Shown: in pieces, positions 1,915 to 21,831 of the stretch
Layout of the letters: each line of letters opens with the position of its first letter
Numbering within the stretch: position 1 is the stretch's first letter
IMG/VR virus record: IMGVR_UViG_3300042691_036566
Span: 62,001 to 126,000 of that record
Length of the DNA: 64,000 nucleotides
Strand: one strand, 5' to 3'
Source: a virus
The notes under the pieces: model-generated
Databases searched by the model: none
Told to the model about the DNA's origin: nothing
The model's input: the letters and a program-made list of their open reading frames with translations, nothing else
Position numbers and translations under genes: made by a program

Positions 1915-2183
1915 TTAAGCTTGGGAGGATATACAAAAGAAAACCAAGTAATAAAGCATCACCATATCCAGCTTACCTGATACCAACAGGTGTTAACCAG
2001 TTAATGACTACAGCGTTGCAAACAAGATACTATTATGTAGATGTAGAGAGGGAGAGAGATTATGGAAGTTATGAGTGTATAACGGAATCATCGCTGCAAT
2101 TGTTTTATGAGTTGGTTGAGGGGGGAATAGATAGGGGAATGGAGATAGGAGAGATACGGCATATCCTGCTGTATATAGGCTAA
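1911..2183 (+). CDS. KxGxIYK-family protein, last array copy
   Basis: About 90 residues from the ATG at 1911, which overlaps the previous stop; a GTG at 1902 is in frame but unnecessary. MIKLGRIYKRKPSN and Y-P-A-Y-L-I-P-T-G place it with the 1241 copy. After the usual LFYELVEGG end it carries about 20 extra residues, perhaps from loss of an earlier stop. It closes the array; about 280 bases without a clear gene follow. Confidence 0.65.
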   Translation: MIKLGRIYKRKPSNKASPYPAYLIPTGVNQLMTTALQTRYYYVDVERERDYGSYECITESSLQLFYELVEGGIDRGMEIGEIRHILLYIG

Positions 2184-2311
2184 TAGAAAAAAATGACATA
2201 AAAAAGGTATTTAGGTTATATATGGGCTGCTCGGATATGTCAATACAACCTGATGAATTTGCTATGTGGGAGTAGTATTCCACCAGTATAGCTCTACGCA
2301 TAGGGTGCCAC

Positions 2312-2367
2312 TATCCTACCGATATAGTAGGGGGTATAGGATAAGGCGCAAGTGTCTACTCTATCGG
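2312..2367. repeat. Interleaved inverted repeats in the 2184-2466 gap
   Basis: The gene-free stretch 2184-2466 holds nested dyads: TATCCTA (2312-2318) with TAGGATA (2337-2343), and CCGATATAGTAG (2319-2330) with CTACTCTATCGG (2356-2367, one mismatch). The two cannot form fully at once, so alternative folds are possible. No T-run follows, so it is not an obvious intrinsic terminator. It lies just upstream of a strong promoter, and a regulatory or terminator role is inference. Confidence 0.4.
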
Positions 2368-2384
2368 TGCAGTATAAAAAGGGG

Positions 2385-2413
2385 TTGACTTCACAATCAG
2401 CCCGTGATATAAT
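2385..2413 (+). promoter_or_regulatory. Strong sigma70-type promoter
   Basis: TTGACT (2385-2390), a 17-base spacer and TATAAT (2408-2413): near-perfect housekeeping consensus. It is placed to transcribe the small genes at 2467 and 2635. Such a promoter would be read by unmodified host RNA polymerase, as expected of an early phage region. Confidence 0.8.
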
Positions 2414-2466
2414 GCAAGATGCATTTGTGGTCCATATGGGTAACTTAACAATATAAAGGATATGCC

Positions 2467-2607
2467 GTGTATACCGTAAAGAACACTAAACCAACGCTAA
2501 CCGTAATTGTCGAAAGTGGGGAGAAAACAAAAAACAAAATCGTAAAGATCTATTATGATAACCTGGCAATTGAGATTGTAACCGATAAGCTAAATGGTGG
2601 ATATTAA
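2467..2607 (+). CDS. 46-residue hypothetical protein, GTG start
   Basis: GTG start with an AAGGA ribosome site six bases upstream, giving a 46-residue frame (VYTVKNTKPTLTVIVESG onward, ending KLNGGY). Beta-strand-rich composition; no recognised motif. It is the first gene after the strong promoter at 2385-2413, which is the main support for it. Confidence 0.5.
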   Translation: MYTVKNTKPTLTVIVESGEKTKNKIVKIYYDNLAIEIVTDKLNGGY

Positions 2608-2634
2608 AGGGCAGCTTTATAAGGGGATTTAAAC

Positions 2635-2823
2635 ATGGTATGCTATGTTCTGAAAACAGCAGATAAAGATAAAAGCAGACGCGAGTATGTACAAGCTATA
2701 TTAGCTTCAAATGATGAAGAAGCATGGACTATATCCCAGAATTATGTAAATCGTACAGGCAAGGAAGTTACTGTATATGTTAGTGAAATGTGCATGGGTA
2801 AACTAGTTCCAGCATATGCATGA
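2635..2823 (+). CDS. 62-residue hypothetical protein
   Basis: Starts at ATG 2635 with AAGGGG upstream. MVCYVLKTADKDKSRREYV, then a SNDEEAWTISQNYVN segment, resembles small phage proteins that convert or display per-residue 'Y-V-L-K' strands with a helix, but I do not recognise a family. Second gene from the 2385 promoter. About 485 bases of non-coding, GC-rich sequence follow. Confidence 0.6.
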   Translation: MVCYVLKTADKDKSRREYVQAILASNDEEAWTISQNYVNRTGKEVTVYVSEMCMGKLVPAYA

Positions 2824-2982
2824 TAAACCCTGTTACCTATATAGCTAGAAACTGATTACTTAGGATATCCCAGTATCAGAGAACACGGTTGGTGAAGTCC
2901 CTTACACAGTGTTCAACAGCAAACAGATATGCTGCGGGTGAATAAGGTAAACACACGCACTGCCAGTCAAACCGATTACACA

Positions 2983-3132
2983 GGCGGCTGGTTCTATCCG
3001 TAGTGTTTGATTCCCTGTCCACTTCACACAGGGTCGCTGGTGTGGGTGGGGAATCTGTGATAAACTACTGAGAGTGGCGAGTGTGGGCAAAGCCAGCCGC
3101 CTATATCCTACGGATAGAGTAAACCAGCCGCC
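2983..3132. repeat. Long inverted repeat in a GC-rich gap (2824-3309)
   Basis: The 2824-3309 gap has no convincing gene. GGCGGCTGGTTCTATCCGTAG (2983-3003) is the inverse of CTACGGATAG...AACCAGCCGCC (3108-3132), with a four-base insertion in the second arm. Inside lie CCCTGT/ACAGGG (3013-3032) and TATCCTACGGATA (3103-3115). The CCAGCCGCC and CTATCC/GGATAG elements recur in four other gaps of this region, so this is a repeat family, not chance. Likely a structured RNA or a protein-binding site; role unknown. Confidence 0.55.
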
Positions 3133-3183
3133 GTTTCACTCCTGGTGTCTCGAGGCTTCGCTGGTAGTGTGGGTGCCGCTTTG

Positions 3184-3288
3184 CTCTAACCATGTTGTTT
3201 CTTTGTGGGTCGATTCCACTCCTGGTCGCTTGTGGTTTTCTGTGGTTCTGGTACAATAGGTCTATAAGTTGATGAGGAATGAACCTCA
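3184..3288 (+). promoter_or_regulatory. Early promoter module 1 with leader hairpin
   Basis: First copy of a repeated module. It has an upstream box (CTCTAAC...TGTTT...GTGGGTCGATTCCACT...GTCGC), a weak -35 TTGTGG (3230-3235), 16 bases, and -10 TACAAT (3252-3257). The leader then has TGAGG-AATGAA-CCTCA (3273-3288), a hairpin just after the conserved 'TAAGTTGA'. A partial extra copy of the upstream box precedes it near 3134-3160. It would drive the gene at 3310. Confidence 0.65.
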
Positions 3289-3309
3289 CAATAAAGAAGG
3301 AATAAAACA

Positions 3310-3489
3310 ATGACAAACAATATCAAGATCGGAATGCGAATCTCGACGCGAATCAATGGAACTGGCATTGTTGTGAGCGGTTTTGGTGATCGCTGGATTG
3401 TCAAGTTTGACAATGATACTTGGGATGGTCCTGTTTATTCATGGAATATCTGGAGTGAAGATGGTAACACTCACAGTGACAGCTTCTAA
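3310..3489 (+). CDS. 59-residue SH3/KOW-like small protein
   Basis: ATG 3310 with GAAGGAA upstream; 59 residues. The sequence KIGMRISTRINGTGIVVSG followed by FGDRWIVKFDNDTW has the form of a small beta-barrel (IGxxV-xxxx-GxGxVV-xx-W-x-V-x-F-D). The same outline appears in the AT-rich genes at 9004, 11075 and 12800 here. Encoded alone behind its own promoter module and hairpin leader. A nucleic-acid or protein-binding barrel is plausible but inferred. Confidence 0.68.
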   Translation: MTNNIKIGMRISTRINGTGIVVSGFGDRWIVKFDNDTWDGPVYSWNIWSEDGNTHSDSF

Positions 3490-3591
3490 AGACCGAGTTT
3501 AATAGTGGGTTGAGTACACTGTCAGTCTCTGGTGTTCTGGCACGTCTTGCGGTATAATCGAACCTGTTCGATGGTTGGGAATGACCCCACC
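3487..3591 (+). promoter_or_regulatory. Early promoter module 2 with leader hairpin
   Basis: Upstream box CTAAAGACCGAGTTTAATAG then TGGGTTGAGTACACTGTCAG, followed by -10 TATAAT (3553-3558) without a good -35. The leader has GGTTGGG-AATGA-CCCCACC (3573-3591), a hairpin with one mismatch. It would drive the gene at 3613. The missing -35 with a perfect -10 suggests that the conserved upstream box is an activator site. Confidence 0.6.
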
Positions 3592-3612
3592 GGGAAACAA
3601 AAGGAAGAAAGA

Positions 3613-3804
3613 ATGACGATTCTCGAAACTTGGTACAATGATATCCTCGGTCACGCAAAGGCCAACTATGCGAATGGTTGGGATTTCTTTGTCGATTCTG
3701 TCGATATGGAACTCTTTGTTGAGGATATGCGGATTTTCTATGTCCGCGAGTATGAGGACGCTTTCAATCTCTACAATACGTGGGCAATGAACCGTCCCCG
3801 GTAG
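3613..3804 (+). CDS. 63-residue hypothetical protein
   Basis: ATG 3613 preceded by AAGGAAGAAAG; the frame is open further upstream but that part overlaps the promoter module. MTILETWYNDILGHAKANYA is helical, with many aromatic residues and acid groups (WDFFVDSVDMELFVEDM). No family recognised. Single gene behind promoter module 2. Confidence 0.6.
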   Translation: MTILETWYNDILGHAKANYANGWDFFVDSVDMELFVEDMRIFYVREYEDAFNLYNTWAMNRPR

Positions 3805-3829
3805 TGAAAGTGGGTTCACTCCCAGCTAC

Positions 3830-3943
3830 TCTAAAGAGCTGGTTTAGTAGTGGGTCGGGTTCACAGCTAGTCTCTGGACCCTCGGCGCGACCCATGATAG
3901 AATGTGTTGGTAAGGTTGACGCGCTGCAAGTGAAGCGGTCAAC
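3830..3943 (+). promoter_or_regulatory. Early promoter module 3, possibly for a short RNA
   Basis: Upstream box CTCTAAAGAGCTGGTTTAG plus GTGGGTCGGGTTCACAG, -10 TAGAAT (3898-3903), then TAAG and a long hairpin GTTGAC-G-CGCT (3915-3925) with AGCG-GTCAAC (3934-3943). No gene follows before module 4. The transcript would run into a T-run at 3971-3977, so a stable RNA of about 70-80 nt is possible. Alternatively it is the first of two tandem promoters for 4081. Confidence 0.55.
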
Positions 3944-3953
3944 ACAAAAGAGA

Positions 3954-4063
3954 AGGTTCTAAAGAGAGTGTTTTTTTGTTCTTGACCGCAGCGCGGTGCT
4001 GTGGTAGAATGTGCAGGTAAGGTTGAGAGGCAATAATGCCTCCAACAATGCGGGTTTCCCGCA
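3954..4063 (+). promoter_or_regulatory. Early promoter module 4 with two leader hairpins
   Basis: The best copy: TTGACC (3982-3987), 17 bases, TAGAAT (4005-4010), then GTGCAGGTAAGGTTGAGAG, identical to module 6. The leader folds as GTTG-A-GAGGCA-ATAA-TGCCTC-CAAC (4022-4046) and TGCGGG-TTT-CCCGCA (4049-4063), followed by AAGGAAAG before ATG 4081. Upstream of the -35 is GTTCTAAAGAGAGTGTTTT, shared with module 7. Leader hairpins may protect the mRNA or bind a regulator. Confidence 0.75.
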
Positions 4064-4080
4064 GAAAGTAAGGAAAGACA

Positions 4081-4467
4081 ATGGCTAAGGCTAATGGTAC
4101 GGTTTCGGCTTCTAAGATGGAGGCGATTGTTGCTTTCGTTCGGAAGTTCAACGCTAACGAGAATCGCGGTTGCCCGATGGGTGCAATCGAGTATGTTGGC
4201 GGATTCTCGAAGGCCGAGATTAAGGCCGCAAAGTCGAGCGGTAAGCTGGAATCCGGCAAGGGTTCGGAAGGTGGTTTCTTTGTTGCTGGTGCAAAGCCGG
4301 TTGCAAAGGGTCCGGTTGTGAAGGCAACCGTTAAGAATCAGATGGCTGCGTTTATGCGTATGCTGTCGGTTGGTCAGACGCTCGATGCGGATACCGTCGA
4401 GCAGGCAAAGGCGATTCTGCGTGATTACGACGCGCAGAACGCGAAGCGCCGCAAGTCGGACGACTAG
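4081..4467 (+). CDS. Winged-helix-like small basic protein A
   Basis: 128 residues; paralogue of the gene at 6472. Shared core: (I/V)xxFVRxFNAxxxRGCPxGAIEYVGGFSKxxIKxAKxxGxxxSxKGxxGGFF. The order helix - helix (FSKAEIKAAKSSG) - small hairpin (SGKGSEGGFF) looks like a winged helix, which would bind DNA. The C-terminal part is helical and ends in a basic tail (NAKRRKSDD). It follows the strongest promoter module and is followed by the same kind of nested hairpin as its paralogue. DNA binding is inferred from shape and charge. Confidence 0.7.
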   Translation: MAKANGTVSASKMEAIVAFVRKFNANENRGCPMGAIEYVGGFSKAEIKAAKSSGKLESGKGSEGGFFVAGAKPVAKGPVVKATVKNQMAAFMRMLSVGQTLDADTVEQAKAILRDYDAQNAKRRKSDD

Positions 4468-4472
4468 CATAT

Positions 4473-4519
4473 AACCCGGTTCCGGGGGCAAACCAGCCCC
4501 CGGCACGGCGCAACGGGTT
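4473..4519 (+). other. Nested intergenic hairpin, copy 1
   Basis: Outer arms AACCCG (4473-4478) and CGGGTT (4514-4519) enclose CCGGGGGC (4482-4489) with GCCCCCGG (4496-4503), loop AAACCA. The 3' single strand reads CACGGCGCAA before the outer arm. No T-run, so it is not a classical terminator. It sits between the stop of 4081 and the ribosome site of 4537. The same architecture follows the paralogue at 6472 and the gene at 6109. An RNA processing, stability or translation switch is inferred. Confidence 0.6.
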
Positions 4520-4536
4520 AATACTTAAAAGGAGAT

Positions 4537-4752
4537 ATGATGCAGACTTTCGGTTGTGCTACTTGTGGTGAAAAGACTTTTGCTCCATCTGCTGTGCTTT
4601 GCGAAACGCACGAGATGCAGGTGCTTGGTATTACTCGCGAGATGCTCGACGCTAATGATGGCGACGATGTTTTGCTCAATACTCGGCAGCTTTGGGATCA
4701 GTGGACAAACGAGAATCCTTGGTCAAACACTTTTAATGTGGAGCGTGGGTAA
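4537..4752 (+). CDS. Small protein with one Cys pair
   Basis: 71 residues (or 70 from the second ATG at 4540), with AAGGAGAT ribosome site. TFGCATCGEKTFAPSAVLCE contains C-x2-C and one more Cys, a possible half zinc ribbon, then an acidic helical C-terminus. The stop TAA overlaps the next ATG (TAATG). No family recognised; probably an early-region accessory protein. Confidence 0.6.
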   Translation: MMQTFGCATCGEKTFAPSAVLCETHEMQVLGITREMLDANDGDDVLLNTRQLWDQWTNENPWSNTFNVERG

Positions 4753-4964
4753 TGGACGTTTACGCGGTTTTGGATGTTGAAGCATATCAGGGCGAGCAGA
4801 CGGTTGCTCTTTTCTCGACGTATGAGAAGGCAAAGGCGTTTGTCGAGCGCAGGTATGACATGAGTGAATACAAGTACGACGGCGATTCTGCTTGGTTGTA
4901 CTTTGGACACGATACGTCCAGGATTGAGATTGCAACCGTCACGGTTGACGAAAGGGATGAATAA
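4752..4964 (+). CDS. 70-residue hypothetical protein
   Basis: Coupled to its neighbours by TAATG at both ends. MDVYAVLDVEAYQGEQTVAL then FSTYEKAKAFVERRY: a strand followed by a helix of the kind seen in small phage proteins that begin 'V-Y-x-V' and have a YEKAKAF helix. Acidic overall. Function unknown. Confidence 0.6.
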   Translation: MDVYAVLDVEAYQGEQTVALFSTYEKAKAFVERRYDMSEYKYDGDSAWLYFGHDTSRIEIATVTVDERDE

Positions 4965-5200
4965 TGACTCGCAAGGTAACAAACACGATTCTGGAGATGA
5001 TTGAGGATGGAATCCTCGACCGTGACACGGTAATCAATGCGTGCCTCAAGTATATGTCCGAGGACGACGTTGCGGATATGGCACACGCAAACGAGTTTAT
5101 TGTCGAGGACGAGGAAACCCTCGATGATGATACCGAGGAAGAGGAAGATGATACTGATCCCAATGCGGATTGGTATGATACAAGCAACGAGTTCCTCTAA
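4964..5200 (+). CDS. Highly acidic 78-residue protein
   Basis: Third gene of the 4537-5200 operon, starting at a TAATG overlap. An N-terminal helical part (ILEMIEDGILDRDTVINACL) is followed by a stretch of Asp and Glu (EEEEDDTDPNADW). Such tails occur in DNA mimics and in inhibitors that compete for nucleic acid sites, but also in inert linkers. Function unknown; about 420 bases of regulatory sequence follow. Confidence 0.6.
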   Translation: MTRKVTNTILEMIEDGILDRDTVINACLKYMSEDDVADMAHANEFIVEDEETLDDDTEEEEDDTDPNADWYDTSNEFL

Positions 5201-5251
5201 CGCTAGAGCCTCGATGATAGTTAGTTCTATCAATAGAGGCGGGGGCTGGCA

Positions 5252-5293
5252 CTCTATCCCAAGTGTTAAATGTTGGATATTCTAGGGATAGAG
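5252..5293. repeat. CTCTATCCC / GGGATAGAG inverted repeat
   Basis: A perfect 9-base dyad (5252-5260 and 5285-5293) in the 5201-5619 gap. It is flanked on the left by GGCGGGGGCTGGC and on the right by GCCCGCCGCCGCCC, a degenerate version of the GGCGG...CCAGCCGCC arms seen elsewhere. It follows the last stop of the acidic-protein operon. Probably a member of the same structured element family as 2983-3132. Confidence 0.5.
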
Positions 5294-5333
5294 GTTGCCC
5301 GCCGCCGCCCATGTGTCCAGAAGTTAACTCTAA

Positions 5334-5400
5334 CGATGTTGTTTTAAAGTGGGTCAATCTCACTCTCAGTCTCTTCCGTTCTCGACCGACTTGGTGTAAT
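5334..5400 (+). promoter_or_regulatory. Early promoter module 5 (degenerate)
   Basis: The upstream box is clear: CTCTAACGATGTTGTTTTAA then AGTGGGTCAATCTCACTCTCAGTCTCTTCC. The core promoter is weak (TGTAAT or TAATAT near 5395-5402). No gene follows before module 6, so like module 3 it may make a short RNA that ends at the hairpin 5452-5466, or it may be an auxiliary binding site. Confidence 0.45.
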
Positions 5401-5451
5401 ATACACACATCATCGACGCGCTGGTGGATGCACGAAAGGCCCCAGCCGCCG

Positions 5452-5466
5452 CTATCCTTGGGATAG
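5452..5466. repeat. CTATCC-TT-GGGATAG hairpin preceded by CCAGCCGCC
   Basis: A compact hairpin (CTATCC 5452-5457, GGATAG 5461-5466) directly after CCAGCCGCCG. This is the shortest copy of the CCAGCCGCC plus CTATCC/GGATAG element found in several gaps between 2.9 and 6.9 kb. It lies between modules 5 and 6 and could end a short transcript from module 5. Confidence 0.45.
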
Positions 5467-5485
5467 TACTAAACTCGGATCTTTG

Positions 5486-5599
5486 CTCTAACTGTCGAGT
5501 TTAATAGTGGGTCGGTTTTACTGACAGTCGCTTCCAAGGCATGGGGTCTTGTGGTAGAATGTGCAGGTAAGGTTGAGAGAGGGAATGGTCCCTCCCAAC
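5486..5599 (+). promoter_or_regulatory. Early promoter module 6 with leader hairpin
   Basis: Upstream box CTCTAACTGTCGAGTTTAAT plus AGTGGGTCGGTTTTACTGACAG, weak -35 TTCCAA, -10 TAGAAT (5555-5560), and a start region identical to module 4 (GTGCAGGTAAGGTTGAGAG). Leader hairpin: GTTG (5572-5575), GAGGGA-ATGG-TCCCTC (5579-5594), CAAC (5596-5599). The stem bases differ from module 4 but pair equally well, so the structure is conserved by compensating changes. Confidence 0.7.
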
Positions 5600-5619
5600 A
5601 ATAAGGAATGAGGAATCAA

Positions 5620-5991
5620 ATGACGGTTGAGACTATGACGCAGAACGAGATTGAAACTCTGGTGAATGAGATTCGTAACACGATCCAGACTATGCGTAAG
5701 GCTCGACTGCTTACGCGAAACGCGATCATGTCGCACATTGGCAAGAACAATGCCGTGCTGCGTCGTGAGGGTGAAAAGCTCAACGCTCTGGGTTTTGAGC
5801 TTGGTGATACCCGCGAGACTCGCAAGTTGCTTATCTGGAATGAGTATCTGGGTATGGAACTTGAGCGTCAGACTGGAATCCCCGCTGAAATGCGGAAGTC
5901 AGCCGCCGTTACTGCTAAGGCAAACGGTATCACTCGGATCAAGGCAAGCAACGTCAATGCAACCACCGCTTTCCTCATGGGTAAGCGGTAA
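5620..5991 (+). CDS. Helical 123-residue hypothetical protein
   Basis: I prefer ATG 5620 (MTVETMTQNEIE) because GAGGA lies at the right distance; an ATG at 5608 is in frame but has its ribosome site too close. Long amphipathic helices (EIETLVNEIRNTIQTMRKARLL) and a basic, Arg-rich middle. No enzyme motif. First gene behind module 6, followed by two tiny genes in the same operon. Confidence 0.62.
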   Translation: MTVETMTQNEIETLVNEIRNTIQTMRKARLLTRNAIMSHIGKNNAVLRREGEKLNALGFELGDTRETRKLLIWNEYLGMELERQTGIPAEMRKSAAVTAKANGITRIKASNVNATTAFLMGKR

Positions 5992-6004
5992 GAAAGGAAA
6001 GAGC

Positions 6005-6106
6005 ATGGAAGATATGATTATCGTGCAAATGGTCTGCATTGGGATTGCCAGCCTCTCGCTGGGATTTGTTTTCGGACTTTCAATCAACCTCAAGATCAAG
6101 GAGTAG
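6005..6106 (+). CDS. 33-residue single-span membrane peptide
   Basis: ATG 6005 with AAGGAAAGAGC upstream. The peptide is nearly all one hydrophobic helix (IIVQMVCIGIASLSLGFVFGL) with a short basic end (KIKE). Next gene starts three bases after the stop. It joins five other tiny membrane peptides in this region; a role in host membrane modification is inferred only. Confidence 0.6.
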   Translation: MEDMIIVQMVCIGIASLSLGFVFGLSINLKIKE

Positions 6107-6108
6107 GA

Positions 6109-6285
6109 ATGAAGGATTTCAAGCGTGGTGTCGAGGGAATGAAGAACGAGCGTTGGACCATTCACGTCAAGATTGATGGTCACACGATTGCTCGCGGAAA
6201 GCGCGGGGTTCGCAAGTGGGTCCGCGACCTCAAGCGTATGTATCACCGCGAGATGCGTCGAGTGAAGTTCGACGCTGAGACATAG
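6109..6285 (+). CDS. 58-residue basic protein
   Basis: ATG 6109, GAGTAGGA just upstream. Strongly basic (GKRGVRKWVRDLKRMYHREM), suggesting nucleic-acid binding. It starts with a strand-like WTIHVKIDGHTIARG part and ends in a helix. No family recognised. A nested hairpin begins just after the stop. Confidence 0.6.
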   Translation: MKDFKRGVEGMKNERWTIHVKIDGHTIARGKRGVRKWVRDLKRMYHREMRRVKFDAET

Positions 6286-6289
6286 AAGG

Positions 6290-6329
6290 TTCGCTGGCGG
6301 TGAAATCCAGCCGCCCAAGGCGCAGCGAA
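6290..6329 (+). other. Nested intergenic hairpin, copy 2
   Basis: Outer arms TTCGCTG (6290-6296) and CAGCGAA (6323-6329) enclose GCGG (6297-6300) and CCGC (6311-6314), with CCAGCCGCC on the 3' side and CAAGGCG in the 3' strand. This is the same architecture as 4473-4519 and 6848-6891 with different outer bases. It directly precedes the GTTCTAAGG of promoter module 7. Confidence 0.55.
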
Positions 6330-6330
6330 A

Positions 6331-6452
6331 GTTCTAAGGTGAGTGTTTCTTTGTACTGGACTTCACAACCCGGTCGTGGTACACTCTGTCCTGTAAGTTG
6401 GTGAGAGGGAATGGTTCCCTTGAACCTATCACTCAAAGACGGTTTGACCGTC
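6331..6452 (+). promoter_or_regulatory. Early promoter module 7 with two leader hairpins
   Basis: GTTCTAAGGTGAGTGTTTCTTT matches module 4. -35 TGGACT (6357-6362), 17 bases, -10 TACACT (6380-6385). Leader: AGGGAA-TGG-TTCCCT (6406-6420) and GACGG-TTTGA-CCGTC (6438-6452), then AAGGAA before the start at 6472. Modules 4 and 7 both drive the winged-helix-like paralogues, so gene and promoter were probably duplicated together. Confidence 0.65.
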
Positions 6453-6471
6453 AGAAGGAATGGGAAATAAA

Positions 6472-6837
6472 ATGGCTACCTCTATCGTTGAGTTCGTTCG
6501 TGCTTTCAATGCCAAGGAGGGTCGTGGTTGCCCTGTTGGTGCGATTGAGTACGTCGGTGGATTCTCGAAGAAGGACATTAAGACCGCTAAGGATAAGGGT
6601 CAGATTGTTTCGACTAAGGGAACCGATGGTGGTTTCTTCCCTGCTGGTGAGGTTGTTAAGACTTCTAAGGCTAAGGTGAAGGATTCTCTCAAGGCCGATA
6701 TGGTCGCTTTCATCACGGCAGTTGCTAATGGCAACGGTGATGCAAAGATGGTTGAGACTGCTCATGCTCTGGTTGCTCGGTATAACGCCGAGTGCGAGAA
6801 GAAGAAGGTTGCTGCTTCTAATCGCAAGACCAAGTAG
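6472..6837 (+). CDS. Winged-helix-like small basic protein B
   Basis: 121 residues from ATG 6472; an in-frame ATG at 6460 abuts the ribosome site. Paralogue of 4081: FVRAFNAKEGRGCPVGAIEY, VGGFSKKDIKTAKDKG and STKGTDGGFF line up directly. The C-terminal helix region is less conserved and ends in a basic tail (KKKVAASNRKTK). It has the same promoter type and the same following hairpin as copy A. DNA binding inferred, perhaps as an early regulator. Confidence 0.7.
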   Translation: MATSIVEFVRAFNAKEGRGCPVGAIEYVGGFSKKDIKTAKDKGQIVSTKGTDGGFFPAGEVVKTSKAKVKDSLKADMVAFITAVANGNGDAKMVETAHALVARYNAECEKKKVAASNRKTK

Positions 6838-6847
6838 CAAACAAACT

Positions 6848-6891
6848 AACCCGTTCGGGCGGTTTCCAGCCGCCCGCATGGCGCAACGGGT
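6848..6891 (+). other. Nested intergenic hairpin, copy 3
   Basis: Outer ACCCGTT (6849-6855) with AACGGGT (6885-6891); inner CGGGCGG (6856-6862) with CCGCCCG (6870-6876); loop TTTCCAG. The 3' strand CATGGCGCAACGGGT is almost identical to copy 1. It follows the stop of the winged-helix-like gene B and precedes the ribosome site of 6914, exactly as copy 1 follows gene A. Confidence 0.6.
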
Positions 6892-6913
6892 AACTGGAAA
6901 AAAGGAGAAAGTA

Positions 6914-7081
6914 ATGCGAATCGTAGCACTGAGTGACGGCACTTGGGATATCTGTGCGGACATTGTTACACTCTCGGACGATCAATATGAGCGTTTGACA
7001 AGTGGTGAAGTGACAATCGCAGATCTGTATGAGGAAGGCATCGAGGCGGAAGTTATTCAAACCTTTAATCGGGAGCAGTAA
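6914..7081 (+). CDS. 55-residue acidic hypothetical protein
   Basis: ATG 6914 with AAAGGAGAAAG upstream. MRIVALSDGTWDICADIVTL then SDDQYERLTSGEVTIADLYE; resembles small phage proteins with an 'S-D-D-Q-Y-E-R-L' helix. Next gene begins two bases after the stop. Function unknown. Confidence 0.62.
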   Translation: MRIVALSDGTWDICADIVTLSDDQYERLTSGEVTIADLYEEGIEAEVIQTFNREQ

Positions 7082-7082
7082 A

Positions 7083-7286
7083 ATGACGAAGCATGAGAAG
7101 CTAGAAAAGGCGAAGGTTGACCACAAGTACGCGATTGCTCGCATCGAGGAGCTGGAGCGTGAACTTACAAAGCAGCGCACGATTGCAAGTGATCGACTGC
7201 ATTCGCTGCGTAAGCTGGACCCCAAGACATATGGGGAAATCAAGAAGGGTTATGTTGATTGGTATACCCTTTCGCGTTCGGAGTAA
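7083..7286 (+). CDS. 67-residue coiled-coil protein
   Basis: ATG 7083, immediately after the previous stop. The first ~40 residues (KLEKAKVDHKYAIARIEELE) have heptad spacing typical of a coiled coil; the end is YVDWYTLSRSE. Function unknown. Confidence 0.6.
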   Translation: MTKHEKLEKAKVDHKYAIARIEELERELTKQRTIASDRLHSLRKLDPKTYGEIKKGYVDWYTLSRSE

Positions 7287-7294
7287 CTAAGGAA

Positions 7295-7429
7295 ATGAAG
7301 CGTGTGCTAGCCGCCGTTTTGGCGGTTGTAACCCTAACAAACTGTGTAGCAGAAAAGGAGTGCAAGGTGAGCGAAAAGGATTGCGTTGCTCTCTGGTATA
7401 TGATGCTTGATAAGAATGCGAGGCGATGA
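7295..7429 (+). CDS. 44-residue lipoprotein
   Basis: ATG 7295, AAGGAA upstream. MKRVLAAVLAVVTLTNC is a clear lipoprotein signal peptide with the lipobox L-T-N-C; the mature part is only about 28 residues and carries two further Cys. It is the first of a chain of tiny overlapping membrane genes (7295-7689). Its size is in the range of Rz1-type outer-membrane spanins, but proline richness is absent and no endolysin is adjacent, so I do not assign a lysis role. Confidence 0.62.
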   Translation: MKRVLAAVLAVVTLTNCVAEKECKVSEKDCVALWYMMLDKNARR

Positions 7430-7521
7430 TGGCAGGTGTACTGATTGCGTCAATGATGCTTGGAGTTAGCTGGGCGTTTGGCAAGATGGTTTATAAGGCA
7501 ATCGAGGTGCCGCGTGATTAA
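7426..7521 (+). CDS. 31-residue single-span membrane peptide
   Basis: ATGATG at 7426 overlaps the lipoprotein stop. One hydrophobic helix (GVLIASMMLGVSWAFG) and a short polar end (KAIEVPRD). The GTG of the next peptide lies inside its last codons. Support comes from the unbroken overlap chain and the hydrophobic pattern. Confidence 0.5.
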   Translation: MMAGVLIASMMLGVSWAFGKMVYKAIEVPRD

Positions 7522-7615
7522 TAAGGAAGTTGTTATCGAGGCTTTGACTGCGGTTGGTTTGGCAGCTGTAGTGGTTGCTGCGTTCTGGGTTGTTTACATT
7601 TTTGAACTGGGGTAG
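7514..7615 (+). CDS. 33-residue single-span membrane peptide, GTG start
   Basis: GTG 7514 inside the end of the previous peptide. VINKEVVIEALTAV followed by a hydrophobic helix (LAAVVVAAFWVVYIF). The next start follows two bases after the stop. A weak ribosome site suggests translation by coupling. Confidence 0.45.
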   Translation: MINKEVVIEALTAVGLAAVVVAAFWVVYIFELG

Positions 7616-7617
7616 AT

Positions 7618-7689
7618 ATGATCGCGTTGACAGTCTGGTTTGCGGTAGTTGCTTTGATCGTAGGAGTTACCACGGAGGTAGTAGGGTAA
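7618..7689 (+). CDS. 23-residue hydrophobic peptide
   Basis: ATG 7618 to TAA 7689: MIALTVWFAVVALIVGVTTE and three more residues, essentially one membrane helix. Its stop shares a base with the next ATG (TAATG). On its own this would be too short to call; the four-gene overlap chain is the reason to keep it. Confidence 0.4.
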   Translation: MIALTVWFAVVALIVGVTTEVVG

Positions 7690-7832
7690 TGGGGGATGAT
7701 CAGATAAGCTATAGCAAGGAGCGGGGTCAATGTGATACCTGTGCTAGATTCACCTGGGTACTCACTCAGTACCTGGGTGGGTGTATTGTTGCACGGTACT
7801 GTAAGCGGTGCGAACCAAAGGAGATGGACTAA
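7689..7832 (+). CDS. 47-residue zinc-ribbon-like protein
   Basis: ATG 7689 at a TAATG overlap. Two Cys pairs, C-D-T-C and C-K-R-C, separated by a strand-rich stretch containing one further Cys, form a likely four-Cys zinc ribbon. The stop overlaps the next start (TAATG at 7830-7834). Function unknown. Confidence 0.55.
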   Translation: MGDDQISYSKERGQCDTCARFTWVLTQYLGGCIVARYCKRCEPKEMD

Positions 7833-8215
7833 TGAGTGCAAAGGCGCAACACTTGTTTGACACGGCAAAGATTCAGCTGGTTAGACTCAACGAGGATTGG
7901 AGTTTGAGTGGTGATACTTTTTGTCACCAGACTGCCTCGATCATTCGATCAGCTGTGTGGAGTGATCGCGATGAGTATCAAAATGTTTACAGCTTGCAGC
8001 GTGCTGTTGCACATCTAGCTAGACGCTTTGCAGACTATACTGATCCCGACAGCGGTCCATGCAATACTGTTGAGCAGAGCAACGAGATTGCTCGGTGGTC
8101 TAATACGTTTGCAGCTGCATCGGATACGGTTAGTTTGCTTGAGGATACTTTGCCTGATAAGCAGCGTGAACTCTTAGCAAATGAAACAATGAGCTTCTAT
8201 CGACAGCTGTTTTAA
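7832..8215 (+). CDS. 127-residue helical hypothetical protein
   Basis: ATG 7832 with AAAGGAGATGG upstream. Mostly alpha-helical (AQHLFDTAKIQLVRLNEDWS, then QRAVAHLARRFADYT), mildly acidic, no motif I recognise. It is the last gene of the GC-richer early block; base composition drops sharply after it. Confidence 0.62.
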   Translation: MSAKAQHLFDTAKIQLVRLNEDWSLSGDTFCHQTASIIRSAVWSDRDEYQNVYSLQRAVAHLARRFADYTDPDSGPCNTVEQSNEIARWSNTFAAASDTVSLLEDTLPDKQRELLANETMSFYRQLF

Positions 8216-8275: not shown

Positions 8276-8438
8276 CTCATGGTGGTATATATACGGAAAG
8301 TATGTCTACCGTGATTACTATTTTCATATAATAACGCGCCTAGGTCAAAAATATATCGCGGGTCATTTTTTGAAACTTTTTAGTTTTCAATTAACTACTT
8401 ACTGGTAAACTGTACCACAGAAAAATGGGGAAAAAAAC

Positions 8439-8918
8439 ATGAAAATTACAAGAGAGTTTTTAAGAAGAGTAATCGCGGAAGAATTACAGAGAGAGGTAGA
8501 TAGTTCAGGCGAGATGAACTCTATCGTAAAAGAGTTAGAATTCATAGCCGAGAAATTATCAGAAATCAATAAAAACGAATACGATTTTAAAGGTTTGCAA
8601 GGAAAGAACCCAATTCCAGATCTAGGAAATATGTTTAAACAACATGCTGATTTTATGAAGGTAACACCACCAGGTAGTCCAAATTCTAAAACGCTAGTTA
8701 GCGGATTAACAAAAATATTTGGATACCTAGAAAACATGATCGGTGATCAATCAGTGCAACAAGCTAACGCATATTACAAAGATCCTACCAACGCTGCAAG
8801 AGGACTAGGCATGTTTTACGCTAGAAACCTAGCAGTAGGCAACGACGCTCTTGAGCCTTTCCCACCAGAAAGTCGTAAAAAACTTCTAGATCGCATCAAA
8901 GCACTATATGCGGTATAA
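8439..8918 (+). CDS. Hypothetical protein with capsid-targeting-like N-terminus
   Basis: 159 residues. The first 20 (MKITREFLRRVIAEELQREV) form a basic amphipathic helix with I-A-E followed by E. T4 internal head proteins carry N-terminal peptides of this kind (for example MKTYQEFIAEA), cut by the prohead protease after (L/I)xE. The rest is helical with GLGMFYARNLAVGND and DRIKALYAV at the end. I infer a packaged or head-associated protein; its function is unknown. A strong terminator follows. Confidence 0.65.
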   Translation: MKITREFLRRVIAEELQREVDSSGEMNSIVKELEFIAEKLSEINKNEYDFKGLQGKNPIPDLGNMFKQHADFMKVTPPGSPNSKTLVSGLTKIFGYLENMIGDQSVQQANAYYKDPTNAARGLGMFYARNLAVGNDALEPFPPESRKKLLDRIKALYAV

Positions 8919-9003: not shown

Positions 9004-9201
9004 GTGTATAATAAATACAAAATAGGCACCCTCGTATACTCACTATACGATTGTTTAGGGATGATTATAGCAATCTCTAAAGATCATTACAGCAGCAAAT
9101 ATCTTGTTGAGTGGTACTGTCACCGATTCTATGGATCATACACAGAAGAAGAGGTAGAAAATCTAAGAAAGAATTTGCTTGATAAGATGGATAAGGACTA
9201 A
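9004..9201 (+). CDS. Small SH3/KOW-like protein
   Basis: GTG 9004 gives 65 residues with YKIGTLVYSLYDCLGMIIAI then YLVEWYCHRF, the outline IGxxV-xxxx-GxIxx-xx-YxVxW seen also at 3310, 11075 and 12800, followed by a helix EEEVENLRKNLLDKM. There is no clear ribosome site and a TATAAT sits inside the first codons (9007-9012), so the true start is uncertain; ATG 9061 would cut the domain. Confidence 0.55.
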   Translation: MYNKYKIGTLVYSLYDCLGMIIAISKDHYSSKYLVEWYCHRFYGSYTEEEVENLRKNLLDKMDKD

Positions 9202-9208: not shown

Positions 9209-10147
9209 ATGATAAAAATAAAAATTTCTAAAAAAAGAATGTTGGAGAACGATAAAAAAAGTAGACCCAACGATTTAAACGACGTTCAAAAAAAGAATTT
9301 AAATTTCTTATTGCTAAGTAAATTTGAAATTGGAGTTGGACCACAAGAGGACGACATTTCTGATGAAATTATAAGTTCTATAATTGATTCTGAAATGGAT
9401 AGAACCGGTAATTTTGATCTATATGATAACCCTCCAGCAGCCCTAACTGCTCCAAAGGTTATGGAAGATCTAGTTAAAAAAATTAAACCACTTACCCATG
9501 CAAAATTAATAAAGGCTATAACCGGCAGATCCTACGGCAAAATATTTAAACTCGACAATGAGCACATATTAAAAATATTTTTTGGTGGCATAGATGTTAA
9601 AGAGGATATGGAATGGTATAAAAAATGCCACGACCTAATGCACAAAAAGGGTGCTAAACTAACCACCCTACCTGTGTATGATTATGGAGAAGTCAAACTA
9701 AAAGCCATGCCAGACGCTTTTGTTGCCTATGTTGAAATGGCGGAAGTAGAGCCACTAGACATTTATCTAAAGGGAACTAAAAGAGCCTTAAGTGATGATA
9801 GTCCAGGATCTGATATTGTTTCTAAGTTACAAGCTTACTTTATTGAGGCATATTATAGAGAGAATATAAAAAATATTGATGGAATCAAAGAATATGTTAA
9901 AAAAAGAGTAAATACATTCGACTCTCCATATTTATATGGCAAAAAAGACGACGATGGGGAAGAAGGCCCAGATTATGGTGGTGGAATCTATCGCCCATTA
10001 ACAGACGAAGAAGCTTCTAGCATCCTAGAAGCATTTTATGATATGGTTAAACTTGGATATCAATTAAGCGATATTGCACCTCGAAATATGGGAGTTTTAA
10101 AACAAAGCAGCGTAAGCAATCCAAAAATAGTTATTTTCGATAGGTAA
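9209..10147 (+). CDS. Kinase-fold protein 1, ending at the DFG-like Asp
   Basis: 312 residues, paralogue of the next gene. Residues ~105-125 read TGRSYGKIFK...HILKIF, a glycine loop plus the nucleotide-binding Lys (K122). Hinge-like YVEMAEVEPLD at ~174-184. The C-terminus has DIAPRN (D288, N293), like the catalytic HxDxxxxN loop, and ends VIFDR, so D311 would be the metal-binding Asp of DFG. The chain stops there, without an activation segment or the rest of a C-lobe. N-terminal MIKIKISKKRMLEN resembles a capsid-targeting peptide with L-E. I infer an atypical kinase or pseudokinase, possibly packaged and injected. Confidence 0.6.
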   Translation: MIKIKISKKRMLENDKKSRPNDLNDVQKKNLNFLLLSKFEIGVGPQEDDISDEIISSIIDSEMDRTGNFDLYDNPPAALTAPKVMEDLVKKIKPLTHAKLIKAITGRSYGKIFKLDNEHILKIFFGGIDVKEDMEWYKKCHDLMHKKGAKLTTLPVYDYGEVKLKAMPDAFVAYVEMAEVEPLDIYLKGTKRALSDDSPGSDIVSKLQAYFIEAYYRENIKNIDGIKEYVKKRVNTFDSPYLYGKKDDDGEEGPDYGGGIYRPLTDEEASSILEAFYDMVKLGYQLSDIAPRNMGVLKQSSVSNPKIVIFDR

Positions 10148-10153
10148 AACAAG

Positions 10154-11005
10154 ATGAAAATAAAAAATAAAATATTAAAAATAATAAAAGAGCAGATATC
10201 GCTAATAGAAAATAGTTCTTCTCCCGCTGAACACAATTTTGATATCATCTTTAAACAAGCTTGGAGTGACCAATCTGGTATGATCTATGATAGCATATTT
10301 GGATCGGCTGGGGATGTTTTTGGAGCTTTTACTGGTGAATATAGCGATGAGGAGAAAGAAGAAAAAGCTAACAATATTCGCGGTCTTATAAACAATATCT
10401 CCTGCCTAAAATCTTTTAAAATTGAAAAAGCTGTAACAGGTCGCTCATTTGGTAAAGTATTTAAAATGAGTAATGGTCATATGCTTAAAATATTTTCTGA
10501 TTCATTAAATGTTCAAGATGATCTTGAATGGTACAAAGAAGCGTATGATAAAGCATTTGAAGGAAGCGCAAATTTAAATACACTACCTATATATGATTTT
10601 GGATCGTTTGATCCTGGTGATGGGGCAGATATTCATTTTGTTGAAATGGCTGAAGTTATGCCGCTTGATAAATGGATTATCTATACAAAACGCGGAAATG
10701 AATCTGATGCGCGTGATGGTTTAAGTCCTCTTATTTCATTCTATGACGAGATGCGCCGTGAAGCAAGAAAAAATAAAGTGTTAGATATGACAAAAGAAGA
10801 TGCAGTACAAATGACACTTTTTATGCTTGCTCATGCCCGAAGTAATTATGAACCGTTCACAAGACAGGAAGCAGAAGCCATTTTAGGTGCTTTCTGGGAG
10901 GCTGAACAATCAGGATGGTCTCTGCAAGATACAGCTGTTCGTAATATGGGTGTAACAAAACAAAGTGACCCAAATAATCCCGTTGTTATAATTTTTGACA
11001 GATAA
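10154..11005 (+). CDS. Kinase-fold protein 2, ending at the DFG-like Asp
   Basis: 283 residues. TGRSFGKVFK...HMLKIF (K112), HFVEMAEVMPLD at ~161-172, LQDTAVRNMG (D259, N264), and terminal VVIIFDR (D282): the same motifs in the same order as the preceding gene, about a third identical by eye. The N-terminal 20 residues (MKIKNKILKIIKEQISLIEN) are a basic helix with I-K-E, again resembling a cleavable head-targeting peptide. Tandem duplication with the same abrupt end argues the short form is functional, not broken. Substrate unknown. Confidence 0.6.
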   Translation: MKIKNKILKIIKEQISLIENSSSPAEHNFDIIFKQAWSDQSGMIYDSIFGSAGDVFGAFTGEYSDEEKEEKANNIRGLINNISCLKSFKIEKAVTGRSFGKVFKMSNGHMLKIFSDSLNVQDDLEWYKEAYDKAFEGSANLNTLPIYDFGSFDPGDGADIHFVEMAEVMPLDKWIIYTKRGNESDARDGLSPLISFYDEMRREARKNKVLDMTKEDAVQMTLFMLAHARSNYEPFTRQEAEAILGAFWEAEQSGWSLQDTAVRNMGVTKQSDPNNPVVIIFDR

Positions 11006-11039: not shown

Positions 11040-11068
11040 TTGACCGGCCCATTAATATGTGGTATTAT
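11040..11068 (+). promoter_or_regulatory. Sigma70-type promoter, predicted leaderless start
   Basis: TTGACC (11040-11045), 17 bases, TATTAT (11063-11068). Transcription would begin about 11074-11076, at the ATG of the next gene (11075), so the first message of this operon may be leaderless. A run of nine T precedes the -35 box. Confidence 0.75.
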
Positions 11069-11074
11069 AGTACC

Positions 11075-11299
11075 ATGATTAAGCAAACCTCAACTCAAAA
11101 ACATAATATTGGCGAAATGGTGTGTATGTGTAAAATTGACCAATCTATTGGTACAATTGTTAAATTTGATGGATTATTTTATAAAGTTCATTGGAACATG
11201 AATCCGTTTGTATCAAACAATAAAATTGAAACGCATCATCTTGATGCAAATATCTCAATTATGAAGAAAAATTTACAAGAACTCCTAGAGGAGTCATAA
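11075..11299 (+). CDS. Small SH3/KOW-like protein
   Basis: 74 residues from ATG 11075; an upstream in-frame ATG at 11057 lies within the promoter and is rejected. HNIGEMVCMCKIDQSIGTIV then LFYKVHWNMNPF matches the 9004 gene (IGxxV-xxxxD-xxG-xIV-xx-Y-V-W) and both end in a helix with K-N-L. Operon leader for the zinc-ribbon, HNH and exonuclease genes that follow. Function unknown. Confidence 0.65.
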   Translation: MIKQTSTQKHNIGEMVCMCKIDQSIGTIVKFDGLFYKVHWNMNPFVSNNKIETHHLDANISIMKKNLQELLEES

Positions 11300-19674: not shown

Positions 19675-19963
19675 GGGGATGACTTGGTTTCGACAAAGGT
19701 AACTAAAAACAAAATGCAGGAAGTCTGCGAACAGCTACAGACTTTAATAAACGGTTCAACAACACAAAAGCCAACGATGACGTTGACTCTGAATTCTACG
19801 CCCTAGCTGCGTAATTCTTGGGCTGGCAACTTGCCTCGAAACAGAAAAGTTGCAATTTTGTTTTAAACTGTAATAAATTGTAATATCTTGTAAGATAATC
19901 CTGTGTATCATTTTGTAGAATACGTATTTTTGGACCGGGGTTCGACTCCCCGCATCTCCACCA
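19675..19963 (+). ncRNA. ssrA: tmRNA (phage-encoded)
   Basis: 5' GGGGATG (19675-19681) pairs with CATCTCC near the 3' end, forming the acceptor stem; the 3' end is encoded as CCA (19961-19963). GGGGATGACTTGGTTTCGAC is the usual tmRNA start and CGGGGTTCGACTCCCCG the T-arm. The tag frame 19770-19814 reads ANDDVDSEFYALAA then TAA. About 289 nt; shorter than most bacterial tmRNAs (~350). tmRNA frees stalled ribosomes with SmpB and tags the product for ClpXP-type proteases through its ALAA end. No smpB is seen here, so the host protein would be used. Confidence 0.93.
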
Positions 19964-19976
19964 AATTTTATACTAT

Positions 19977-20028
19977 CCCGTCAGAGTTTATATTTTACAG
20001 GATTTTTTCCTGTTGACGGGAGTTTTTT
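19977..20028 (+). terminator. tmRNA terminator overlapping the next promoter
   Basis: CCCGTCA (19977-19983) with TGACGGG (20014-20020), inner ACAGG/CCTGT (19997-20001, 20009-20013), then T6 at 20023-20028. The 3' arm contains TTGACG, the -35 box of the next promoter, so one stretch of DNA serves both ends. Confidence 0.8.
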
Positions 20029-20041
20029 GCCGTGGTATTAT
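20013..20041 (+). promoter_or_regulatory. Promoter for the 20077/ClpP-like genes
   Basis: TTGACG (20013-20018), 17 bases, TATTAT (20036-20041). The -35 lies within the terminator stem of the tmRNA. It would transcribe 20077-21343, including the ClpP-like protease. Confidence 0.8.
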
Positions 20042-20076
20042 ACTCAAACAATGGCCGCTGTGCCGAGGAGACAATC

Positions 20077-20340
20077 GTGACTGTTACTAAGGATGAAGTG
20101 AAGAATGGTGATTCATGGACGAATGTACGTTATTTTTCAAGCTTTGAGGAAGCTGATGCAATGCGTAAGTCACTACGGTCACAAGACCGTGCTGGTATGA
20201 TGCAATTTAAAGTAAAACGTTGCGGTGAGGGTGGAACCCTGTTTGTTGTTAAGTCTCGTATTGATCAAAATGCTAAAGCTGAGTTAGAAGCTCTAGAAGA
20301 AAAAATGTTTAGCAAGAAAAACAAGAAGAACAACAAATAA
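20077..20340 (+). CDS. Basic-tailed small protein between tmRNA and ClpP-like gene
   Basis: 87 residues from GTG 20077 with GAGGAG six bases upstream; the frame is open to GTG 20032, but that lies in the -10 box. SWTNVRYFSSFEEADAMRKS then FKVKRCGEGGTLFVVKSR form an alpha/beta unit, with an acidic helix and a Lys/Asn tail (SKKNKKNNK). No family recognised. Between a tmRNA and a ClpP-like gene, an adaptor or RNA-binding role can be imagined but nothing shows it. Confidence 0.65.
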   Translation: MTVTKDEVKNGDSWTNVRYFSSFEEADAMRKSLRSQDRAGMMQFKVKRCGEGGTLFVVKSRIDQNAKAELEALEEKMFSKKNKKNNK

Positions 20341-20352
20341 TAGGGATAAAAA

Positions 20353-20946
20353 ATGAAATATATTCTTAATGCAAATCCAAAATTAGATGAAGACTCAGTT
20401 GATGAGTCTAGCGATGTAGAAGATAACGATAATAATATTTATTTCTATGCTGGAGTTTCGAAGAAGTCAATTTTTGAACTAAATAAAAAAATCGCTTCAA
20501 CGTCAAAAGCTCTAGTCCTTACTGGAATTGAGCTAGATATTCCAACACCAGAAATCAAACTACACATTAATAGCGGTGGTGGAAGTTTGCTAGACTGTTT
20601 TTCTGCAATTGACTACATTAGAAACAGTAAAGCCCCAGTGCATTCTATTATTGAGGGTCATGCAGCTTCTGCTGCAACGCTTATGAGTGTTGTTGCAAAA
20701 AAGCGTTCAATTACAAAACATTCTGTTATGCTTATTCATCAACTATCTGCCGGTATGTGGGGTAAATTTGAGAGTATGAAAGACGAAATTGAAAATGCAA
20801 CAATGTTCATGAATACAATCAATGAAATTTATACAAAATATACAAAAATACCAAAAAGTGTCTTAAAAGAAATTTTAAAACGTGATATATATATGGATGC
20901 AAAAACTTGTCTCAAGTATGGTCTTGTAGATAAGATTATGGAATAA
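20353..20946 (+). CDS. ClpP-like serine protease
   Basis: 197 residues. The ClpP triad can be placed: EGHAASAATL (S106), MLIHQLSAGMWG (H129) and KRDIYMDAKTCLKYGLVD (D178). HINSGGGSLLDCFSAIDYI matches the substrate-binding strand before the active site. Length is close to the 190-210 of bacterial ClpP. The N-terminal 30 residues are acidic and unlike cellular ClpP. Phages use such proteases either for prohead processing or host protein turnover; position beside tmRNA favours turnover, but head maturation cannot be excluded. Confidence 0.9.
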   Translation: MKYILNANPKLDEDSVDESSDVEDNDNNIYFYAGVSKKSIFELNKKIASTSKALVLTGIELDIPTPEIKLHINSGGGSLLDCFSAIDYIRNSKAPVHSIIEGHAASAATLMSVVAKKRSITKHSVMLIHQLSAGMWGKFESMKDEIENATMFMNTINEIYTKYTKIPKSVLKEILKRDIYMDAKTCLKYGLVDKIME

Positions 20947-20948
20947 AC

Positions 20949-21161
20949 ATGAAAAAAATTGTCTTTTTATCTTCACTATTACTAGTTAGTTGCCTAAAAG
21001 AAGAGCAAAATACCTTAAGTGTGAAGGAGTGTGATCCATATTCCGTTCAATGTCTGGAAAGAATAAGCAAAAATGTCTGCCCAGACCCAGAAACAAGAGA
21101 GTTTGACTTCCTCGCAGAGGAAGTAATGGAAACAATTAACTATAACAAAGGATGCAAATAA
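20949..21161 (+). CDS. Cys-rich lipoprotein
   Basis: 70 residues, starting two bases after the protease stop. MKKIVFLSSLLLVSC is a lipoprotein signal with lipobox L-V-S-C; the mature part has several Cys (ECDPYSVQCLERISKNVCPD). Likely anchored to a host membrane. Function unknown; superinfection exclusion or lysis are possible roles for such phage lipoproteins. Confidence 0.68.
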   Translation: MKKIVFLSSLLLVSCLKEEQNTLSVKECDPYSVQCLERISKNVCPDPETREFDFLAEEVMETINYNKGCK

Positions 21162-21163
21162 AT

Positions 21164-21343
21164 ATGAAAAAAGTAATTGTAGTAGGAATTTTAGCAATGA
21201 TTGCTGGTTGTGTAGTAGCTTGTGTAAACGATCCAACAACTTCTACTGATGTTGGTGTGGATACGTCTTCAGAAACTGTTGTAGATACCGATGTAGTTAC
21301 GGATACTACAACTAACACAGAAACAGCTACTGCTGTAGAATAA
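21164..21343 (+). CDS. Thr/Asp-rich lipoprotein
   Basis: 59 residues from ATG 21164. MKKVIVVGILAMIAGC carries lipobox I-A-G-C; the mature chain is a low-complexity stretch of T, D, V, S and E (DTSSETVVDTDVVTDTTTNT). Likely an extended surface tail on a membrane anchor. Directly followed by tRNA-Gly. Confidence 0.66.
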   Translation: MKKVIVVGILAMIAGCVVACVNDPTTSTDVGVDTSSETVVDTDVVTDTTTNTETATAVE

Positions 21344-21344
21344 T

Positions 21345-21419
21345 GCGGGTGTAGTTCAGTGGTAGAACTCTAGTCTTCCAAACTAGATGTCGTCGGTTCA
21401 AATCCGTCCACCCGCTCCA
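21345..21419 (+). tRNA. tRNA-Gly (TCC)
   Basis: Acceptor GCGGGTG pairs with CACCCGC; discriminator T, CCA encoded at 21417-21419. Anticodon stem CTAGT/ACTAG with loop CTTCCAA gives anticodon TCC, reading GGA/GGG. T-arm GTCGGTTCAAATCCGTC-type. GGA is a common glycine codon in the AT-rich phage genes here, which would explain keeping this tRNA. Confidence 0.93.
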
Positions 21420-21588
21420 ATTAGGTTTAATCTACCTTCTATGTTTTCTTTCTGGGCGATCAATCCATAGAAAAAAGATTCGGTGATTCGGCCACCGTAA
21501 ACTTGTCTTGATCGACACAAGTTTCCAGCTTCTTGATAAAAAGCTGGTTCTTGTTTTGGTGACTATTTATTGCAAGGAGATAGTGGTC
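21420..21588 (+). other. Gap with two perfect hairpins
   Basis: After the tRNA come AAACTTGT (21499-21506) with ACAAGTTT (21517-21524), and CCAGCTT (21525-21531) with AAGCTGG (21541-21547), the second followed by TTCTTGTTTT. They could end the tRNA transcript or form the leader of the next gene. I see no gene or third tRNA in this gap. Confidence 0.5.
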
Positions 21589-21831
21589 ATGACAAAAAAG
21601 AAAAAAGAACCAACATCTAAATTAGATACACAAATAGTTCTAGCTAAGAGAAAAATAAAATTTTATTTAGGTGTTGCATTAGTTACGTTAGGTGTAATAA
21701 TTGGTGTTGTAGTATATGGTAAAAAACAACCAGATTATGTAAAGAAAAATGTAGTAAATCAATATGTTTGTAAAATAGTTGGATCAGTTCCAGATGAAGA
21801 TATACTTGCGTTGGAGTGTTTAACGAAGTAA
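21589..21831 (+). CDS. Small membrane protein
   Basis: 80 residues from ATG 21589 with AAGGAGATA; the frame is open further upstream but over the hairpins. A basic start, one membrane helix (LGVALVTLGVIIGVVV), then YGKKQPDYVKKNV and a short outer domain with two Cys. The YGxKxP motif just after the helix also occurs in the CxxCH protein at 22099 (YGAKKPS), so the two may share membrane placement. Confidence 0.65.
   Translation: MTKKKKEPTSKLDTQIVLAKRKIKFYLGVALVTLGVIIGVVVYGKKQPDYVKKNVVNQYVCKIVGSVPDEDILALECLTK

Follow-up and report, generated by a model that had tools for sequence, protein, structure and literature searches.

Can a protein keep a kinase fold, and perhaps kinase chemistry, when its chain ends at the DFG-like aspartate? 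The question is raised by two adjacent genes in the window (the whole 64,000-nucleotide stretch analysed here), which is part of a virus record of 126,749 bases. The carrier is a T4-like freshwater phage, and a longer contig, IMGVR_UViG_3300008267_000004 (187,450 bases), holds these genes too, their proteins being 100% identical. The initial annotation described two tandem reading frames with a shared end, and both were found on the forward strand, as are the parts of P1 and P2 listed below: P1 at 9209-10147 (312 aa, C-terminus IVIFDR) and P2 at 10154-11005 (283 aa, C-terminus VIIFDR), with 6 bases between them. They are paralogues, about 40% identical. P1 is taken as a kinase-fold protein from its reading frame, its paralogy with P2 and the motif alignment, and P2 from its reading frame, AlphaFold2 modelling and structure comparison.

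The motifs first described for the pair are present: the loop TGRS(Y/F)GK, a following Lys, a hinge VEMAEV, a D-x4-N loop and the terminal IVIFDR or VIIFDR. By motif alignment the glycine-rich loop of P1, TGRSYGK, covers residues 105-111 (9521-9541), followed by the beta3 Lys122 (9572-9574). The five-domain alignment described below places the P1 hinge VEMA at residues 175-178 (9731-9742), and the catalytic loop runs from D288 to N293 (D-x4-N, 10070-10087). The reading-frame end and a count of spacing identify a metal-type Asp311, followed by Arg312 and the stop (10139-10147). The corresponding elements of P2, from the same alignment, are Lys112 (10487-10489) and D259-x4-N264 (10928-10945), and its chain closes with the metal-type Asp282, Arg283 and the stop (10997-11005).

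Plain homology scans recovered members in the P1/P2 phage only. One is a third paralogue, P3, which lies outside the window at L003:67-2088 (record positions 30,349-32,370); this 673-aa protein carries a P-loop domain at its N-terminus (GPPAVGKS), which weakly matches ATPase and polynucleotide-kinase families in PHROG, and a kinase-like domain at its C-terminus ending in VIFDN and the stop. DNA pattern scans based on the catalytic loop added two true members from other phages: P4 (IMGVR_UViG_3300034062_007329, 260 aa, ending VIFDN), whose downstream neighbours are the same (HNH nuclease, exonuclease, protease-like and cytidylyltransferase-like), and P5 (IMGVR_UViG_3300030419_007586, 360 aa, ending IIFDF). 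A second pattern scan held the Asp-to-Asp spacing fixed and left the stop codon free, so that differently spaced members would escape it; every true member it matched ended at the same point, and none continued. Pattern matches in L036, L038, L040 and L043-L046 were dismissed as chance. A further match, in L042, was also set aside, as its motif spacing is incidental within a tape-measure-like reading frame of more than 3,000 aa from a 197-kb phage (L042:2333-11446); that frame contains a kinase-like stretch (FLGSGGENAAFDIGDEVLKI ... LDAHGSNMGY) along with P-loop-, nucleotidyltransferase- and HAD-like stretches, judged by eye. A search of the collection of genomes found no relative, and a profile search found no family member in the nearest named phages by major capsid protein, Flavobacterium phage immuto, Microcystis phage Mel-JY01 and Rhodothermus phage RM378.

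The five members have diverged to pairwise identities of 24-41%, and their ends coincide. From the catalytic Asp to the last Asp there are 23 residues in 5/5 members, and beyond that Asp a single residue (R, R, N, N, F). The common end is neither chance nor sequencing error, since P3 and the homologues in two other phages end alike. The proposal that the short form is selected, first made from P1 and P2, thus extends to the whole P1-P5 family, because all five members, though diverged, stop at the same point. Other kinases are longer past DFG, as would be expected if these genes were longer kinases that had decayed or been misassembled; an identical end in three paralogues and two further phages, on separate contigs, makes this extremely improbable. 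Readthrough of the stop codon into the next gene was also considered and dropped: the frames agree after P1, P2 and P3 and disagree after P4 and P5.

Invariant positions in the five-domain alignment include the beta3 Lys, the hinge V-E-M, the catalytic Asp and Asn, a Gln in the loop after that Asn, and the terminal I-F-D. The Lys and Asp residues on whose conservation the initial annotation staked its kinase assignment are therefore kept in all homologues, together with the Asn. There are 51-55 residues from the beta3 Lys to the hinge Glu and 93-112 from the hinge to the catalytic Asp. In the glycine loop one Gly is invariant in 5/5 members; P1, P2 and P4 have TGRS(Y/F)GK in place of GxGxxG, and the canonical GEGVYG occurs in P5 alone. 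With its GEGVYGTAF, VLKFF, YYDVHLGNVGV and FIIFDF-stop, P5 makes the link to kinases legible by eye. The acidic residue of alphaC is less clear: the column of P1 D133 reads D, D, D, D, E across the five but lies a short distance from the Lys, the next candidate column has a Tyr in P3, and a Glu is not strictly kept.

Such a loosely kept alphaC acid, along with the absence of alphaF and the activation segment from 5/5 members, would be consistent with a pseudokinase, in which the kinase-like fold binds ATP or a partner and transfers no phosphate, its active site being unsupported without alphaF. Pseudokinases have usually lost one catalytic residue, however, and here the Lys, Asp, Asn and Asp all remain invariant across the divergence noted above; we consider this reading possible but doubtful.

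Sequence searches place the family nowhere in particular. A Pfam profile search with P1 to P5 gave no match, Pkinase and APH included, so that the HMM comparison with aminoglycoside-type kinases suggested at the outset found no match, and the Pkinase profile found nothing in contigs G000 and G001. Searches of PHROG, PDB sequences and GenBank phages with P1, P2, P3 and P5 returned no informative match for the kinase domain. The best match of the family profile in the PDB was to the glycine loop of SteC and was weak (E = 0.1); weak tblastn matches to a Presley gp53-like protein, a Synechococcus virion protein and Gordonia gene 71 were taken as chance. The contig of P5 also encodes a real kinase, a 340-aa protein (G004; Pfam Pkinase, E = 1.4e-6), and in a profile-profile comparison its catalytic loop aligned with that of the family, at a level that did not reach significance.

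For structure prediction three sequences were given to AlphaFold2, P4 and P5 not among them, and the models are poor, with a mean pLDDT of 52 for P2 and 58 for the P1 domain; the P2 model is best at residues 170-250, where block means are 75-87. Its N-terminal part is ordered as three beta strands, alphaC, a further strand and the hinge, after which come helices at 183-206, 214-227 and 237-252, then the catalytic loop, beta7, beta8 and the end. The insertion of helices that had been anticipated between the hinge and the catalytic loop is thus seen in the P2 model as three predicted helices (residues 183-252, 10700-10909, pLDDT 67-87 by block), which seem to stand in for the missing alphaF-alphaI region. 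Against the PDB, Foldseek matches to the P2 model are led by APH(2'')-Ia (E = 1.8e-3, the best value) and casein kinase 1, and in VIA-align all 50 of the 50 matches listed are kinases, with Z at most 5. VIA-align superimposes residues 282/283 of the model on AKT1 292, PINK1 358, PknB 157 and MEK1 209, which we take to be the DFG Asp or its neighbour, and in rows aligned over the C-lobe the end of the model also falls on the DFG Asp or an adjacent residue in SRPK1 and MPS1. A search of a viral fold library placed three phage proteins without a known function first, and the named matches after them were mostly protein kinases, annotated phage kinases included. The P1-domain model gave mixed and weak VIA-align rows topped by a Fanzor chain, and for this reason the structural argument rests on P2. 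Each of these matches is weak, and their weight as model-based evidence lies in their consistency. The kinase fold claimed for the pair is in this way supported, within low-confidence models, by kinase matches and a kinase-like order of elements.

An unrelated ATP-binding or non-enzymatic protein, resembling a kinase by chance, would account for the lack of Pfam, PHROG and PDB sequence matches and for the low model confidence. The motifs are nevertheless correctly ordered in 5/5 members and canonical in P5, and the structure matches are mostly kinases, so we regard this as very improbable. Judged by residues and by the predicted order of elements, P1-P5 appear to sit within the kinase-like fold.

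Within that fold they are filed under neither the eukaryotic-type nor the APH/choline kinases, because tested features of both fail. Of the eukaryotic-type features beyond DFG, the activation segment, alphaF and the GHI subdomain are all absent, with one residue past the Asp. In eukaryotic protein kinases alphaF is described as the anchor for the catalytic loop and both hydrophobic spines, and the C-lobe of eukaryotic-like kinases is said to be common to them through alphaF (PMC3415842). The APH/choline type, of which APH(2'')-Ia is an example, has the same order of motifs as P1-P5. APHs also have a long stretch from hinge to catalytic Asp, similar to the 93-112 residues present here, but they have further helices past DFG, and in the five members no residues are left for an alphaF.

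Minimal effector kinases such as SteC, OspG and NleH offer another comparison, being likewise depleted in the C-lobe; they keep residues after DFG, whereas in P1-P5 the putative C-lobe helices precede the catalytic loop. In SteC, K256 and the catalytic D344 are 88 residues apart (PMC13395416), against 145-166 (summed distances) in the five members, and the mass missing after the Asp may therefore sit upstream instead. SteC constructs cut 11-13 residues past the DGD motif are inactive (PMC13395416), which is the main reason for doubt over activity here and speaks for the pseudokinase reading. OspG activity requires a bound partner (PMC13395416), and P1 adjoins P2; both facts suit an incomplete kinase that is completed in trans, with a partner (P1 and P2 for each other, a neighbouring gene product or a host protein) adding helices and switching it on. 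We think this improbable, given that P4 and P5 are each single copies on their (partial) contigs and that the genes downstream vary among members.

A further comparison is with the phage-encoded kinases of the T7 gp0.7 and JSS1_004 type, which share the kinase fold; sequence similarity to them was not found. The known kinases of this type possess a shutoff domain at the C-terminus; JSS1_004 is an early gene product that is made after entry and phosphorylates defence proteins (PMC12345140).

How unusual is the early stop among phages? The G004 kinase on the P5 contig ends 21 residues past the Asp and Presley_35 stops 18 residues past the metal Asp. A 217-aa kinase-like reading frame of an uncultured phage (LR756508, L060:1384-2037), with a GAGVFGAAF loop and FDG, ends 20 past the Asp; a Gly replaces its catalytic Asp, and the region of its glycine loop gives a weak match to the family profile (E = 0.01). 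All three stop early like P1 and P2 but have longer tails, and they form no detectable sequence family with them. Eukaryotic protein kinases do extend 100 or more residues beyond DFG. The initial annotation had taken at least that length as the norm, which holds for the eukaryotic enzymes and not for these other phage kinase-like proteins. Shortness past the Asp is a trend among phage kinase-like proteins, with the one-residue tail as its extreme, because the others stop at 18-21 residues, a range drawn from three proteins. Among open-licence literature we found no paper on phage kinases with such an end.

It had further been suggested that both proteins begin with peptides resembling T4 head-targeting leaders, and here P1 and P2 part ways. 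The longer contig of the phage encodes a T4-type gp23 (E = 3.2e-58) and a gp21-type prohead protease (G001; PF03420, E = 1.8e-31). In T4, gp21 cleaves after L/I-x-E, and short N-terminal leaders direct internal proteins to the core (PMC9026906). A leader family of the form M-K-I/L-T-K-S-x-L-K-x-I-I-x-E-E stands on many proteins and is common to the P1/P2 phage and the P5 phage; the P2 leader MKIKNKILKIIKEQISLIEN (10154-10213) resembles those of other proteins of its phage, including the gene directly adjoining gp21. Against a pooled leader profile that adjoining gene scores 17.9 bits and P2 15.6 bits, a value reached by 3 of 1000 shuffles, so the claim appears to stand for P2; P1 scores 1.0 bit, reached by 429 of 1000 shuffles, P4 0.7 bits and P3 below zero. 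The P2 result leans on pooling, as a profile from the single P5 contig did not recognise P2. The P5 leader is clear against a profile made without P5, though one from its own contig. The parallel with the T4 internal proteins IPI-III and Alt lies in the T4-type gp23 and gp21 of the same phage and in the L/I-x-E sites of the P2 and P5 leaders; the difference is that the T4 capsid targeting leader is unlike theirs in sequence and that none was detected on P1, P3 or P4. On these sequences P2 and P5 are plausible candidates for head targeting; for P1 the idea has no support. In a cluster on the P5 contig (L037), a MKLTKSKLKQIIKEEL-type leader stands on seven proteins and a MKLLFENWRKYL-type leader on four, which suggests that there are two leaders for packaging or targeting; the window's phage has a leader of the MKLLFENWRKYL type as well (MKIIMENWRKF, L017:541-1560).

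Other features of the locus may be recorded here. Small G-x-V/I ... V-x-W proteins lie on either side of the P1/P2 pair (9004-9201 and 11057-11299), and similar ones follow P4 (L034:2172-2595). Positions 2000-8000 form a 6-kb island of 43-50% GC, against about 31% in the phage, with small reading frames only and no Rfam match; the P4 contig (L035:5463-5816 and 8299-8622) encodes relatives of some of these frames, including 4081-4467 and 6460-6837 (motif GRGCPxGxIxxVGGF). The region 19675-22051 holds a phage-encoded tmRNA with the tag ANDDVDSEFYALAA, close to tRNA-Gly and tRNA-Ala.

Based on these observations, we propose, with a probability of roughly 60%, that P1 and P2 are an extreme short form of a kinase-fold phosphotransferase, from an undescribed family of T4-like environmental phages. 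The fold would run from an N-lobe (glycine loop, beta3 Lys, alphaC) through the hinge and three helices to the catalytic loop with its Asp and Asn and on to beta8, a strand predicted to close with the Mg-binding Asp as penultimate residue; in P2 this is Asp282, aligned on the DFG Asp of solved kinases. The part of known kinases that follows DFG (beta9, activation segment, alphaF and the helices beyond it) is absent, and its place in the C-lobe would be taken by a longer helical block ahead of the catalytic loop. Such a protein would bind ATP-Mg and, in a putative catalysis, transfer phosphate, most likely to a target that is not a peptide held by an activation segment. In eukaryotic protein kinases protein substrates dock on the activation segment and the GHI subdomain (PMC3415842), and since P1-P5 lack both, the substrate is more likely to be a small molecule, the end of a nucleic acid or a protein docked in some unusual way than a classic peptide. 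The P-loop fusion in P3 fits, without proving, a nucleic-acid or nucleotide role. That P2 and its leader-bearing relative P5 might travel in the head and act at an early stage is speculative, and the full combination, an active kinase fold lacking alphaF, the activation segment and all but one residue past the metal Asp, with its C-lobe rebuilt upstream and with P2 and P5 injected with the DNA, we hold to be unlikely.

The family itself is real and previously unannotated. It points to short kinase-like phage proteins that standard profile libraries miss, some of which bear leaders suggestive of delivery with the DNA. As a natural family without alphaF in which every catalytic residue is kept, it offers a direct test of the minimal fold for phosphotransfer.
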